From the IMG/VR virus record IMGVR_UViG_3300047300_001031, positions 1 to 37,891 of that record: a stretch of DNA of 37,891 bases, one strand, 5' to 3'. Below are positions 6,891 to 29,079 of the stretch, in pieces. The position numbers and the translations under genes are program-made. Numbering within the stretch: the stretch's first letter is position 1; every line of letters starts with the position of its first letter. This DNA is from a virus. A model generated the notes under the pieces. The model had not been told where the DNA came from. It saw only the letters and a list, made by a program, of their open reading frames with translations, and did no database searches.

Positions 6891-7808
6891 ATGGCAACCC
6901 CAATGCGCAGTACGGACTTTAGAGCGGTAGTCGAACCTATCCTCAATGAAGTCTTTGATGGTGTATACCAGCAACGCGATGACGAGTGGAAGGGTTTCGT
7001 TACCCAGATCACCGGTATCCCCCGTAACTATCACGAAGAAGTGATGTTGTTCGGTATGAACACAGCCCCTGAGATGCCTGACGGTACACCCGTTTCGTAT
7101 GATCAAGGCGGTACTTTGTTCATTACCCGTTTCATCTATAAGATCTATGGTTTGGCATACGCCATGACCAAAGTCTTGATGGAAGATGGCGATCACATTC
7201 GTATCGGCTCGACTTTCTCGAAGCACTTGGCTCAGTCCATGATCGAGACAAAAGAGACATTGTGTGCAAACTTGTTGAACTTTGCTTTTACCCCCGGCTA
7301 TGTTGGCGGCGACGGTAAGACATTGGTCGCAAATGATCACCCCATCTCTCAAGGTCGTTCTTTCAGCAACCAATTGTCTACAGCGGCATCCTTGTCACAG
7401 ACATCTGTTGAGCAGATTCTGATTCAAGTTCGTTCAGCAGTGGACAACAACGGTAAGCGTATTCGCCTGAAGGCGGAGCAACTCGTGGTTCCCCCAGCTT
7501 TGGAATTCCAAGCCGAGGTAATCTTGAAGTCTGTCCTCCGTTCCGGCGGCGCTGACAACGATTTGAACCCTATCAAGTCTACTGGCATGTTGCCAAACGG
7601 CGCCCACGTGGTGACTCGTTTGTCTTCTAGCAAGGCTTGGTTCGTTCAAACCGACGCTGAAAATGGTTTGATGTTGGTTATGCGTCGTCCCTTGGAGCGT
7701 AGCTCTGAAGGTGACTTCGAGACCGACAGCATGCGTTACAAGGCCTCTGAGCGTTATGCTACAGGCTGGCACGATCCCCGTAACATCTACGGCACGATCG
7801 GTTTGTAA
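6891..7808 (+). CDS. Major capsid protein, Mu gpT-like (HK97 fold)
   Basis: Predicted shell protein of 305 residues. Its centre has the gpT-family pattern: a helix (ETLCANLLNFAF) followed by TPGYVGGDGKTLVANDHPIS, closely like the 'GGDG..L....HP' signature of Mu-type heads. A second conserved region follows (LVVPPALEFQAEVIL), then the C-terminal domain with LMLVMRRPLE and a closing aromatic loop (YATGWHDPRNIYG). The N-terminus (RAVVEPILNEVF) is the usual N-arm and shows no long delta domain, consistent with a separate scaffold gene. The ribosome site AAAGGAAG (6875-6882) is strong. Two hairpins follow the stop, the second an intrinsic terminator. Confidence 0.9.
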   Translation: MATPMRSTDFRAVVEPILNEVFDGVYQQRDDEWKGFVTQITGIPRNYHEEVMLFGMNTAPEMPDGTPVSYDQGGTLFITRFIYKIYGLAYAMTKVLMEDGDHIRIGSTFSKHLAQSMIETKETLCANLLNFAFTPGYVGGDGKTLVANDHPISQGRSFSNQLSTAASLSQTSVEQILIQVRSAVDNNGKRIRLKAEQLVVPPALEFQAEVILKSVLRSGGADNDLNPIKSTGMLPNGAHVVTRLSSSKAWFVQTDAENGLMLVMRRPLERSSEGDFETDSMRYKASERYATGWHDPRNIYGTIGL

Positions 7809-7841: not shown

Positions 7842-7846
7842 CCCTA

Positions 7847-7880
7847 AACGCCTCACCTGCAAAGGTGGGGCGTTTTTGTT
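7847..7880 (+). terminator. Rho-independent terminator after capsid gene
   Basis: AACGCCTCACC (7847-7857) pairs with GGTGGGGCGTT (7864-7874) in an 11-bp stem with one G-T wobble and a 6-base loop, followed by TTTGTTT. This closes the head transcription unit and lies just before a candidate phage promoter. Confidence 0.85.
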
Positions 7881-7889
7881 TGCGGATGT

Positions 7890-7908
7890 GGGTAATTCTA
7901 TGTAGGAG
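7890..7908 (+). promoter_or_regulatory. Candidate phage promoter 1
   Basis: GGGTAATTCTATGTAGGAG closely matches two other intergenic sites at 11022 and 22668. All share GGGTAATT and TAGGA, and the two cleaner copies carry CTATAGGA, like the CTATAGGG initiation end of T7-family promoters. The site directly follows a terminator and precedes a gene block. It lies 85 bases from the next ATG, so its AGGAG cannot be a ribosome site for that gene. Recognition by a phage RNA polymerase encoded elsewhere is inferred. Confidence 0.55.
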
Positions 7909-7992
7909 CCTTTATCAGCACTGACCCGCAAGGCTCGCGGGCGGACGCCATAGAGACGGTGCTGTAATCTTTCTATGGAAAGTACTTAAAAA
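7905..7992 (+). promoter_or_regulatory. Structured 5' leader, possible pseudoknotted regulatory RNA
   Basis: If transcription starts at about 7905, the leader holds four complementary pairs: 7906-7912 with 7930-7936 (7 bp), 7916-7921 with 7959-7964 (6 bp), 7925-7929 with 7937-7941 (5 bp), and 7948-7956 with 7970-7978 (9 bp, one wobble). The third and fourth form hairpins whose loops contain the partners of the first and second. They could therefore form a tandem pseudoknot or two exclusive folds. A small hairpin (7969-7973 with 7978-7982) would mask GGAAAG, the only ribosome site for the gene at 7993. Function is not known. Confidence 0.45.
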
Positions 7993-8439
7993 ATGTCATC
8001 TACTTTTAACACACCTATCCGCATTTTCAAGCGGAACAACCCTTCCAACGACGGCACGATCGCCCCTGATAACACAGGCGCGTCCGTTTGCACACAGCAA
8101 AAGGCTTTCGTTGGTGGCACTGCCGCCACCTTGACTTTGCCCGCTGGCGCAATTGTTCACTCTTTTACAGCCTATGTGATCACAGCCGCTGGCACCCCCG
8201 GCACACCTAATGTGACCTTGGGCGGCACAACAGTAGCTACTTTGTCTGACGCCGCTGGTGTAAATACAGCCGCTTTGACCGCTGGTCAAGCCGCGTTGTT
8301 GTCCAACATTGGCCCCAACGATCTGACAGTGTCCTACACCGCTGGTGCAAGCGCTGTTGGTGTGTTGAACGTGGTTTATACACCACGCAACCCTGATGGT
8401 ACCATTACCCCCGTTGGTAACGGCTACACAAACAACTAA
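7993..8439 (+). CDS. Putative virion protein, beta-rich, 148 aa
   Basis: First gene after candidate promoter 1. The 148-residue product is rich in Ala, Gly, Thr and Val, with alternating strands (FVGGTAATLTLPAGAIVHSF, later LNVVYTPRNPDG), a pattern common in small capsid decoration or fibre-like proteins. The only ribosome site is a weak GGAAAG at 7977-7982, 10 bases before the ATG and potentially buried in a hairpin. No enzyme motif. A structural role is inferred from composition and position. Confidence 0.6.
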   Translation: MSSTFNTPIRIFKRNNPSNDGTIAPDNTGASVCTQQKAFVGGTAATLTLPAGAIVHSFTAYVITAAGTPGTPNVTLGGTTVATLSDAAGVNTAALTAGQAALLSNIGPNDLTVSYTAGASAVGVLNVVYTPRNPDGTITPVGNGYTNN

Positions 8440-10999: not shown

Positions 11000-11019
11000 G
11001 GGCATGTCGGCCCTTTTTT
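10998..11019 (+). terminator. Rho-independent terminator after lysozyme
   Basis: AAGGGC (10998-11003) pairs with GCCCTT (11010-11015) over a 6-base loop and continues into TTTT. It starts within the lysozyme stop codon and ends three bases before candidate promoter 2. Confidence 0.78.
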
Positions 11020-11021
11020 AT

Positions 11022-11040
11022 GGGTAATTATCTATAGGAG
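11022..11040 (+). promoter_or_regulatory. Candidate phage promoter 2
   Basis: GGGTAATTATCTATAGGAG differs from the 22668 copy at two positions. It sits between the lysozyme terminator and the gene at 11050. Here the terminal AGGAG is also well placed (9 bases) to serve as the ribosome site of that gene, so a promoter start would have to fall close to it. The repetition at 7890 and 22668, where no ribosome site function is possible, supports the promoter reading. Confidence 0.58.
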
Positions 11041-22653: not shown

Positions 22654-22667
22654 ACGCCTTAAATTAT

Positions 22668-22686
22668 GGGTAATTCTCTATAGGAA
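22668..22686 (+). promoter_or_regulatory. Candidate phage promoter 3
   Basis: GGGTAATTCTCTATAGGAA, third copy of the motif. It lies in the 56-base gap before the ejection-protein block. The next ATG (22710) is 24 bases beyond and has no Shine-Dalgarno sequence of its own; its short leader is C/A-rich and looks unstructured. Confidence 0.58.
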
Positions 22687-27420: not shown

Positions 27421-29079
27421 ATGGCTATTGAAGATACAACCGGCGGCCTGCCCGCTGACCCGCAAATTAAAGCCACCATGCCTAAGGTCGGTGGCTTGAC
27501 GCTTGCCGGCCAAAAAGGCGTGTCCTTAAACCCAACAGATAGCTCTGACATTCGTGATCGTTTGATGCAGATGATTGCGCAACGTGAGCAGGCCGCTTCT
27601 AGTTGGGGCCCAATCATGGAACGCGCCGCGGTGTCCGCAGGTGGTCCCGGCACGTTTGCGCAGAACCTCCAGTCGTTCAACACCAACCAACGCAACAAAG
27701 AGAAAGAACTCTTTGACATGCGTGTTGGTTTGGCACAACTTAACACTGAAGAGGCGCGCATCAAACAGGCTCAAGAGCAGGCGGCCGCACAAAAGCAAAT
27801 GTTTATGAGAACACTAGGATTGGAAGATCCAACCCAAGCTGGCGGTGTGCCCCAAGCTGGCGGTGTGCCCCAAGCAGGTGGTGTGCCCCAAGCTGGCGGT
27901 GTGCCCCAAGCAGGTGGTGTGCCCCAAGCTGGCGGTGTGCCTCAAGCAAACGATACGCTCACCGCGCAACAAAAAGTCGCGTTGCTTCAACTATATCAAA
28001 CAAACCCACAAGAGGCACAAAAGCAACTCATTGCGTTGACCAAGCAAGATGAGATTGCACGCCGTTTAAAAATGGCGGGTGTTCAAGAGGGTTCGCCCAC
28101 ATGGAATGCGGCAATGCTTACCAATGTTATTGGCGCGGGTGCTTTGAATCCTCAAGATGTTCGCACTCCCGGCGGAACTGTTCAACAAACACCGTTCAGC
28201 GCCGCCAGTGGTGTTTTGGCAGGTGGTGCTCCCACAACGGCTCCCTCGGCGGCTCCTGCGGCCCCTATGCCCGCCCCAGTGGTTGGCGCGGCACCTGCCC
28301 CCGCAGTCACCCCCGCAGTCACCCCCGCAGTCGCTCCGGTGGCCGCGGCACCCACACAACGTTCGCCTTTTGCACCCGGATCTAAAGAAGATCTGGATTG
28401 GAAACAAAAGAAAGCTGGCGTTGATATTTCCGCTGAAACAAAAGAAAAAGAAGGATTGGCTACTACTGCGGCCAAACAACAAGAACAACATTCTGCTGAT
28501 GTGAAAGAAGCACAGACTAATTCCCTAATGGCGCAGAATATGCAGAAAGATATTCGCACAGCAGGAAGCCTATTAGGCAAGCTTGCTGGTGGTGGCGCAC
28601 AGTCTGCGTTCTTTGGTTTGATTGACGGCGGTATTCAAGTTGGTAACATGGGTTCAGTTAACTTACCTAAGTTTACTGAGGCTGTGGTCAAGATGGATCC
28701 AAGGGCCAAAGACCCCGCGGTCATGGACGCATACACTCGCGTTGCCAAAGAAGTAGAGCGTATGAAACTTGCATACACTCGCGTGGCGTATGAAGGCCAA
28801 GGCGCTGTTTCAAACACCGAGCGTGATTTAATTAAAACTGCTGTGGGTGACGTTGACCGCATGTCTCCAGCCAACTTGATGCGCATGGCCAAGGCCACAG
28901 AACTTGAGGCGCGCAACAAAATGGACCAAGACCGCCTGTGGAGTCAGATGAAAGACGCTGGCATGACATGGTCTCAGTTCAAGAGCAGTCCGGAACTTAA
29001 AGACATGCAACGCAAACAGTACTACCGAACTGCTAAAGCGTTTGGTGTTGAAAACGCTAAATATCCCGGAGACCAATAA
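27421..29079 (+). CDS. Putative internal virion protein with QAGGVP repeats, 552 aa
   Basis: Ribosome site AAGGA (27409-27413). The N-terminal 135 residues are helical and charged (DIRDRLMQMIAQREQAASSW). Six tandem QAGGVP units follow (residues 139-174), then another helical segment, a Pro/Ala-rich linker (about 255-315) with a 12-base DNA repeat, and a helical C-terminal domain of about 230 residues (FALIDGG-like core reading FFGLIDGGIQVGNMGSVNLP; later AYTRVAYEGQGAVSNTERDL). That last region resembles C-terminal helical domains of other phage virion proteins. A third member of the putative ejection set; function not recognised. Confidence 0.62.
   Translation: MAIEDTTGGLPADPQIKATMPKVGGLTLAGQKGVSLNPTDSSDIRDRLMQMIAQREQAASSWGPIMERAAVSAGGPGTFAQNLQSFNTNQRNKEKELFDMRVGLAQLNTEEARIKQAQEQAAAQKQMFMRTLGLEDPTQAGGVPQAGGVPQAGGVPQAGGVPQAGGVPQAGGVPQANDTLTAQQKVALLQLYQTNPQEAQKQLIALTKQDEIARRLKMAGVQEGSPTWNAAMLTNVIGAGALNPQDVRTPGGTVQQTPFSAASGVLAGGAPTTAPSAAPAAPMPAPVVGAAPAPAVTPAVTPAVAPVAAAPTQRSPFAPGSKEDLDWKQKKAGVDISAETKEKEGLATTAAKQQEQHSADVKEAQTNSLMAQNMQKDIRTAGSLLGKLAGGGAQSAFFGLIDGGIQVGNMGSVNLPKFTEAVVKMDPRAKDPAVMDAYTRVAKEVERMKLAYTRVAYEGQGAVSNTERDLIKTAVGDVDRMSPANLMRMAKATELEARNKMDQDRLWSQMKDAGMTWSQFKSSPELKDMQRKQYYRTAKAFGVENAKYPGDQ
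27835..27942 (+). repeat. Six 18-bp tandem repeats encoding QAGGVP
   Basis: Units start at 27835, 27853, 27871, 27889, 27907 and 27925. Two variants occur, CAAGCTGGCGGTGTGCCC (A) and CAAGCAGGTGGTGTGCCC (B), in order A A B A B A, with one further C-to-T change in the last unit. The alternation points to duplication of a 36-base A-B pair. Confidence 0.95.
28300..28332 (+). repeat. 12-bp repeat in Pro/Ala linker
   Basis: CCCGCAGTCACC-type units start at 28300, 28312 and 28324 and encode repeats of Pro-Ala-Val-Thr inside a flexible linker. Confidence 0.8.

Follow-up and report, generated by a model that had tools for sequence, protein, structure and literature searches.

The window, that is, the whole stretch of 37,891 nucleotides analysed here (positions 1 to 37,891 of IMG/VR virus record IMGVR_UViG_3300047300_001031), contains an 88-nt leader (7905–7992) in front of the gene that starts at 7993. 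Two hairpins of this leader have loops complementary to segments further upstream in it, which raises the questions of whether the complementarities form together as one RNA fold or as competing folds, and of what such a fold would do for the gene behind it.

Two hairpins with upstream partners for their loops

Both loop-to-upstream complementarities can be read directly from the window sequence (Table 1). An earlier note on this DNA had described a CCCGC/GCGGG hairpin with a 7-base loop exactly complementary to 7906–7912, and a second hairpin, CCATAGAGA (7948–7956) with TTTCTATGG (7970–7978), whose loop contains GTGCTG, complementary to CAGCAC at 7916–7921; both descriptions are correct in their coordinates. 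The two hairpins, P3 and P4, follow each other, and each loop pairs with the RNA's own 5′ strand, giving P1 and P2, respectively. In the window, P2 comprises 8 bp (7916–7923/7957–7964), including one G-U pair and the invariant pair G7923–C7957. The conserved P4 comprises 6 bp (7948–7953/7973–7978) and is shorter than the 9-bp stem of the window; it is counted as 6 bp because AGA at 7954–7956 is near-invariant whether or not UUU lies opposite.

Shuffled sequence, a comparison proposed in the earlier note, did not reach equal complementarity, and the structure withstands this check: among 3000 dinucleotide shuffles of 7905–7992, a hairpin of the first kind occurred in 3, one of the second kind in 15, and both in order in 0. 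The folding energy of the leader is unremarkable (z −1.19, for the single sequence with pseudoknots left out); the case for structure is a comparative one.

Table 1. Coordinates of the leader, its helices and the surrounding features (window positions unless a contig or locus is named).
Feature	Position	Strand	Remarks
Major head gene	6891–7808		Upstream of the leader; matched by PHROG in the window and by Pfam in relative G003
Terminator-like hairpin with T run	7846–7878	+	From sequence; between the major head gene and the promoter
Promoter-like repeat	7886–7904	+	TGNGTAATTCTATGTA then GGA, up to about −1; repeat family D9
Inferred transcription start (+1)	7905	+	1 nt before P1a; promoter copies stop resembling each other there
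P1a	7906–7912	+	GAGCCTT, read directly; partner 7930–7936
P2a	7916–7923	+	CAGCAC at 7916–7921; partner 7957–7964
P3a	7925–7929	+	CCCGC; partner 7937–7941
P1b	7930–7936	+	AAGGCTC, read directly; entire 7-nt loop of hairpin P3
P3b	7937–7941	+	GCGGG; 0–1 nt after P1b across the family
Joining sequence P3–P4	7944–7947	+	GACG in 54/59 genotypes; C7946 in 59/59
P4a	7948–7953	+	Partner 7973–7978
AGA before P2b	7954–7956	+	A 58/59, G 59/59, A 59/59 genotypes
P2b	7957–7964	+	Within the loop of hairpin P4; GTGCTG at 7959–7964
Joining strand P2b–P4b	7965–7972	+	6–9 nt after the ninth P2b position (family)
P4b	7973–7978	+	Pairs with P4a; end 7–16 nt before ATG across the family
Ribosome-binding site GGAAAG	7977–7982	+	Read directly; overlaps the last 2 nt of P4b
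Gene behind the leader	7993–8439	+	148-aa predicted beta-sandwich protein
Inserted basic gene (~150 aa)	L005 2415–2873; L013 2420–2872; L018 2421–2873		
Sigma-70-like gene of G003	contig 28022–28588 (L215:8022–8588)	+	Relatives in G001, G004, G005
Replication-side promoter copies	G004 13523; G003 37482; G001 38480	−; +; +	

Covariation and topology across the family

The protein encoded at 7993 has 21 close relatives in IMG/VR, and the same leader architecture precedes each of their start codons. A profile scan found 185 relatives, 80 loci of which were kept, while a DNA pattern search blind to genes gave 106 stretches; removal of duplicates left 86 distinct leaders. The pattern matches L116, L153, L197 and L322 were dropped on inspection as chance-like, unrelated DNA. 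All related viral contigs examined that have enough upstream sequence share the architecture. Two bacterial bins also contain a relative with the leader, and both may be viral contigs binned with bacteria. The viruses that carry the leader are freshwater bacterial viruses. In a comparison with 50,697 phage records, the leader had nothing but short matches of chance level by BLASTN (E at least 3), and the downstream protein had none by TBLASTN. The nearest named phages have only the head gene in common with the window; in the circular record MW202545, a different gene follows the head gene and there is no such leader. As a separate observation, the G001 and G003 contigs both have exact 127-nt end repeats, which probably reflect k-mer overlap left by the assembler on genomes that are circular or permuted, and not biological terminal repeats.

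Covariation was assessed in 59 distinct genotypes over 24 base pairs. Helices were parsed for each sequence individually, because a MAFFT alignment alone puts P1b and P4b one base out of register from clade to clade; the parser picks the best placement of P1, P3 and P4b, which inflates pairing somewhat. Double compensatory changes are present in 20 of the 24 pairs, so that compensation among homologues, the other check proposed at the outset, also leaves the structure standing. Paired cells amount to 86%, compared with 70% (maximum 71.5%) in shuffles, and the four helices together show 201 double-change cells, compared with 44 (maximum 62). On a FastTree phylogeny of the downstream protein, about 102 compensatory double events were counted, compared with 10.2 ± 5.8 (maximum 32) in a mispaired control, in which left columns were matched to wrong right columns with the same helix placements. 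Furthermore, well-paired columns hold 28 G-U cells and only 4 A-C cells, an excess that indicates selection on the plus-strand RNA.

The individual helices differ in how often they vary. P3 has double changes in all four counted pairs and is 97.5% paired; for P2 the figure is 8 of 9 counted positions and for P4 5 of 6 pairs, and the tree places 37 double events in P2 and 26 in P4. Double events are fewest in P1 (8), where the first two counted pairs are constant, as the overlap of P1 with the transcription start would explain. Compensatory variants of P1 among relatives include GAGCC/GGCTC, GAGCT/AGCTC, GGAAG/CTTCC and GGAGTC/GGCTCC. Four positions pair poorly, namely the last counted P1 pair, two in the middle of P2 and the outermost of P4, and they probably lie outside the conserved helices.

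Comparison across the family shows that the four predicted helices coexist as two interlocked pseudoknots. In the per-sequence parse, the helix strands follow the order P1a-P2a-P3a-P1b-P3b-P4a-P2b-P4b; P1 crosses P3 and P2, while P2 crosses P4. P1b fills the P3 loop, which measures 7–8 nt in 50 of 58 genotypes. A loop-filling helix with an adjoining stem, as formed by P1b and P3b, is a geometry known from kissing loops. A7924, GACG at 7944–7947 and AGA at 7954–7956 are near-invariant, as are the mutually paired G7923 and C7957, and these positions place three GAC units at the joints of the fold. The earlier note had left the choice between a tandem pseudoknot and two exclusive folds. It is the tandem pseudoknot that the family bears out: both pairings are conserved with compensation, each copy has the two of them, and the loops are of suitable length.

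Promoter-like repeat, downstream gene and ribosome-binding site

The leader begins at the end of a 20-nt promoter-like repeat, of which the window has three copies (7886–7907, 11018–11039 and 22664–22685). The copies end in TATAGGA, the first one in TGTAGGA, and relatives carry 3–6 copies per genome; a TG step is kept about 15 nt before GGA, with no obvious −35 element. Resemblance among copies stops at GGA, where P1 begins; P1 starts 0–2 nt from the repeat end across the family, and in the main clade the +1 G is itself paired. P1a must be transcribed, because it covaries with P1b. From these sequence features, we infer that the repeat would serve as an extended −10 promoter used by host polymerase with a phage sigma factor, with the start at GGA. 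A 189-aa sigma-70 protein that comprises regions 1.2, 2 and 3 but lacks region 4 is encoded by the relative G003 (63,708 b), and a protein of this type may read the repeated promoters; the contig of the window is itself a fragment. A search of 18 records for a T7-like polymerase (PF00940) gave no match and is weak, as the control matched nowhere either. The other two window copies (at 11018 and 22664) have short leaders that run straight into genes and lack this RNA; the earlier note, too, had denied them a leader of this kind. In relatives, different small hairpins (for example CGTCGGGAGACG then CCC) come after the promoter copy that lies towards the replication genes, and they may be a further structured leader of smaller size.

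Among the matches listed, intact leaders precede only the 7993-type gene, and the next gene after it differs between relatives. Its protein has no Pfam, PHROG or NCBIfam family match. The AlphaFold model is a beta-sandwich (pLDDT 75.9), whose VIA-align neighbours are phage capsid chains with Z scores of 7.0, 7.0, 6.4 and 5.9, within the common-fold range; the best include the cement proteins of KHP30 and KHP40, along with capsid chains from phages GP4 and Pam1. On the basis of this modelled fold match and the place after the head gene, a capsid cement or decoration protein is probably the likeliest identity. In some relatives (L005, L013 and L018), a short gene lies between the head gene and the promoter; this inserted basic gene possibly encodes an HNH-type homing endonuclease. 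Elsewhere in the window, a tandem 18-nt repeat (27833–27940) lies inside a coding frame, as PQAGGV repeats.

At its 3′ side, the fold ends at the ribosome-binding site, which starts −2 to +3 nt from the P4b end across the family. The conserved fold leaves this site free or nearly so, with its first two bases inside P4 in the clade of the window. The joining strand at 7965–7972 contains most of a pyrimidine tract able to pair with the site, and the earlier note had pointed to a small hairpin that could hide it. Such a hairpin does exist in the window (CUUUC 7969–7973/GAAAG 7978–7982), with similar ones of about −2 to −4 kcal/mol, the window's included, in several minor clades; its conservation and selection as a competing fold, however, did not hold up. 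It is no better than with permuted tracts (fractions 0.09–1.0) and has zero energy in most main-clade leaders tested, so the proposal of two competing folds is not supported, there being no conserved alternative among them.

Known RNAs and possible roles

The leader had been said to match no known class, and in agreement with this, Rfam 15 covariance models give no match at the gathering threshold in the window or six relatives; permissive Rfam searches of two leaders gave chance-level matches only. The open-access papers that we found, in a literature search mostly without subscription papers, do not describe the RNA. HDV-like ribozymes are interlocked pseudoknots with P1 at the 5′ end and with P3 and P4 as closed hairpins. 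The leader resembles them in its interlocked fold with P1 at the 5′ end, but assignment to this class is rejected, since it needs the order P1-P2-P3-P3′-P1′-P4-P4′-P2′, whereas the order here is P1-P2-P3-P1′-P3′-P4-P2′-P4′, with P1b within the P3 loop and P2b within the P4 loop. SAM-II and preQ1 riboswitches are H-type pseudoknotted leaders next to the ribosome-binding site. They share with this leader a pseudoknot adjoining that site; here, however, the site lies outside the knot except for 2 nt in the window's clade, there is no Rfam match and no conserved alternative fold, and a structural gene follows. Pseudoknotted leaders are known as a kind; a leader of the present topology, placed at the 5′ end of an mRNA in this virus family, appears to be new. 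We judge the RNA family to be new and its general kind to be known.

The role that we favour, tentatively and at somewhat less than even chances, is that of a cis-acting mRNA 5′ end that would act as a constitutive stabiliser and as a presenter of the ribosome-binding site for the probable cement gene. The family comparison places the first 5–7 nucleotides in the loop of P3 and pairs the segment after them with the loop of P4. Transcription would start at, or 1–2 nt before, P1. P1 would stack on P3 and bury the 5′ triphosphate end, shielding the message from 5′-end-dependent decay by RppH and then RNase E, while P4, ending at the ribosome-binding site, would keep the site out of other pairings. 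The message would then last long and be translated steadily, for a protein of which many copies are required. Both enzymes need a 5′ end that is single-stranded, and structure at that end stabilises mRNA (PMC3997798). It also speaks for this role that, among the matches listed, the gene behind intact leaders stays the same while the genes after it, or between head gene and promoter, vary. The E. coli ompA and papA leaders, in which the message's first nucleotides are likewise paired (PMC3997798), work as this candidate would; those are local stem-loops, whereas here the 5′ strand is captured by two downstream hairpin loops and there is a conserved core. A stabilising 5′ structure was among the suggestions of the earlier note, and it is still a good candidate; P1 pairing is conserved and begins at the promoter-repeat end. 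Against it, a plain 5′ hairpin would protect equally, whereas interlocked knots and near-invariant unpaired bases suggest specific recognition; moreover, the leader stands before one gene only, though the promoter is shared, which gene-specific regulation fits at least as well, and in the window's clade P4 takes in the first two bases of the ribosome-binding site.

The main rival to a stabiliser is autogenous control by the cement protein, which we regard as possible but less probable. Surplus 7993 product (or another virion protein) would bind the leader and block or trap the 30S subunit, matching cement to head protein. The strict pairing of RNA and gene among the matches listed, the near-invariant unpaired core, and the extension of the structure into the expected 30S footprint are all in keeping with this, but the 7993 protein has no recognised RNA-binding domain and models as a cement-like beta-sandwich. 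There is a precedent in T4 gp32, whose own mRNA leader carries the 5′ pseudoknot that it recognises (PMC535899). The gene 32 operator of T4 and RB69 resembles the present leader in that a pseudoknot lies in the 5′ portion of the leader, ahead of just one phage gene; it consists of a pseudoknot of about 28 nt followed by a less structured tract of more than 40 nt with UUAAA repeats (PMC535899). That operator additionally needs the UUAAA-rich tract. In the present leader, four helices make up two interlocked pseudoknots that reach as far as the ribosome-binding site, and neither family searches nor the model mark the 7993 product as a single-strand binding protein. A specific partner, and not a constitutive role, is suggested by how elaborate the fold is, by its invariant joints and by its being tied strictly to one gene. 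With similar reserve, we can envisage a new regulatory RNA class, a 5′-terminal double pseudoknot with a GAC/GACG/AGAC core that would be bound by the cement protein or another partner and match synthesis to capsid assembly.

A riboswitch that responds to a ligand or to temperature, with the pseudoknots competing against the ribosome-site-hiding hairpin, is improbable. The window and several minor clades can pair the pyrimidine tract 5′ of P4b with the ribosome-binding site 3′ of P4b, but this pairing behaves no better than permuted tracts and is absent from most main-clade leaders tested; no Rfam riboswitch matches, and the gene downstream is the same structural gene, not a metabolic one. Because the site is largely free and the hiding hairpin carries no sign of selection, a constitutive role is favoured over a switch. 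Equally hard to credit is an action on transcription, such as put-like antitermination on host polymerase that would let late genes be read through. The RNA does form the extreme 5′ end of a transcript read from a promoter of phage type, and the phage sigma factor encoded by relatives makes the use of host polymerase probable; yet the RNA is present at only one of 3–6 promoter copies, and it closely abuts the ribosome-binding site, which an RNA acting on polymerase would not need to do. That the complementarities are chance or DNA-level repeats without RNA function has almost no probability left, for although the single-sequence folding energy is ordinary, the shuffles, the covariation and the asymmetry of G-U over A-C are all contrary, and at the level of a conserved plus-strand RNA structure this reading is refuted.

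The leader represents a structured RNA family that is not catalogued and whose covariation is unusually strong; more than 100 viral contigs represent the phage lineage in which it occurs. Being small (about 75 nt) and interlocked, the RNA is suited to three-dimensional structure determination, and because it spans from the inferred first nucleotide to the ribosome-binding site, a direct test is possible. The question that it poses is whether a phage mRNA protects itself by a knotted 5′ end, or whether a capsid protein regulates itself through this RNA.
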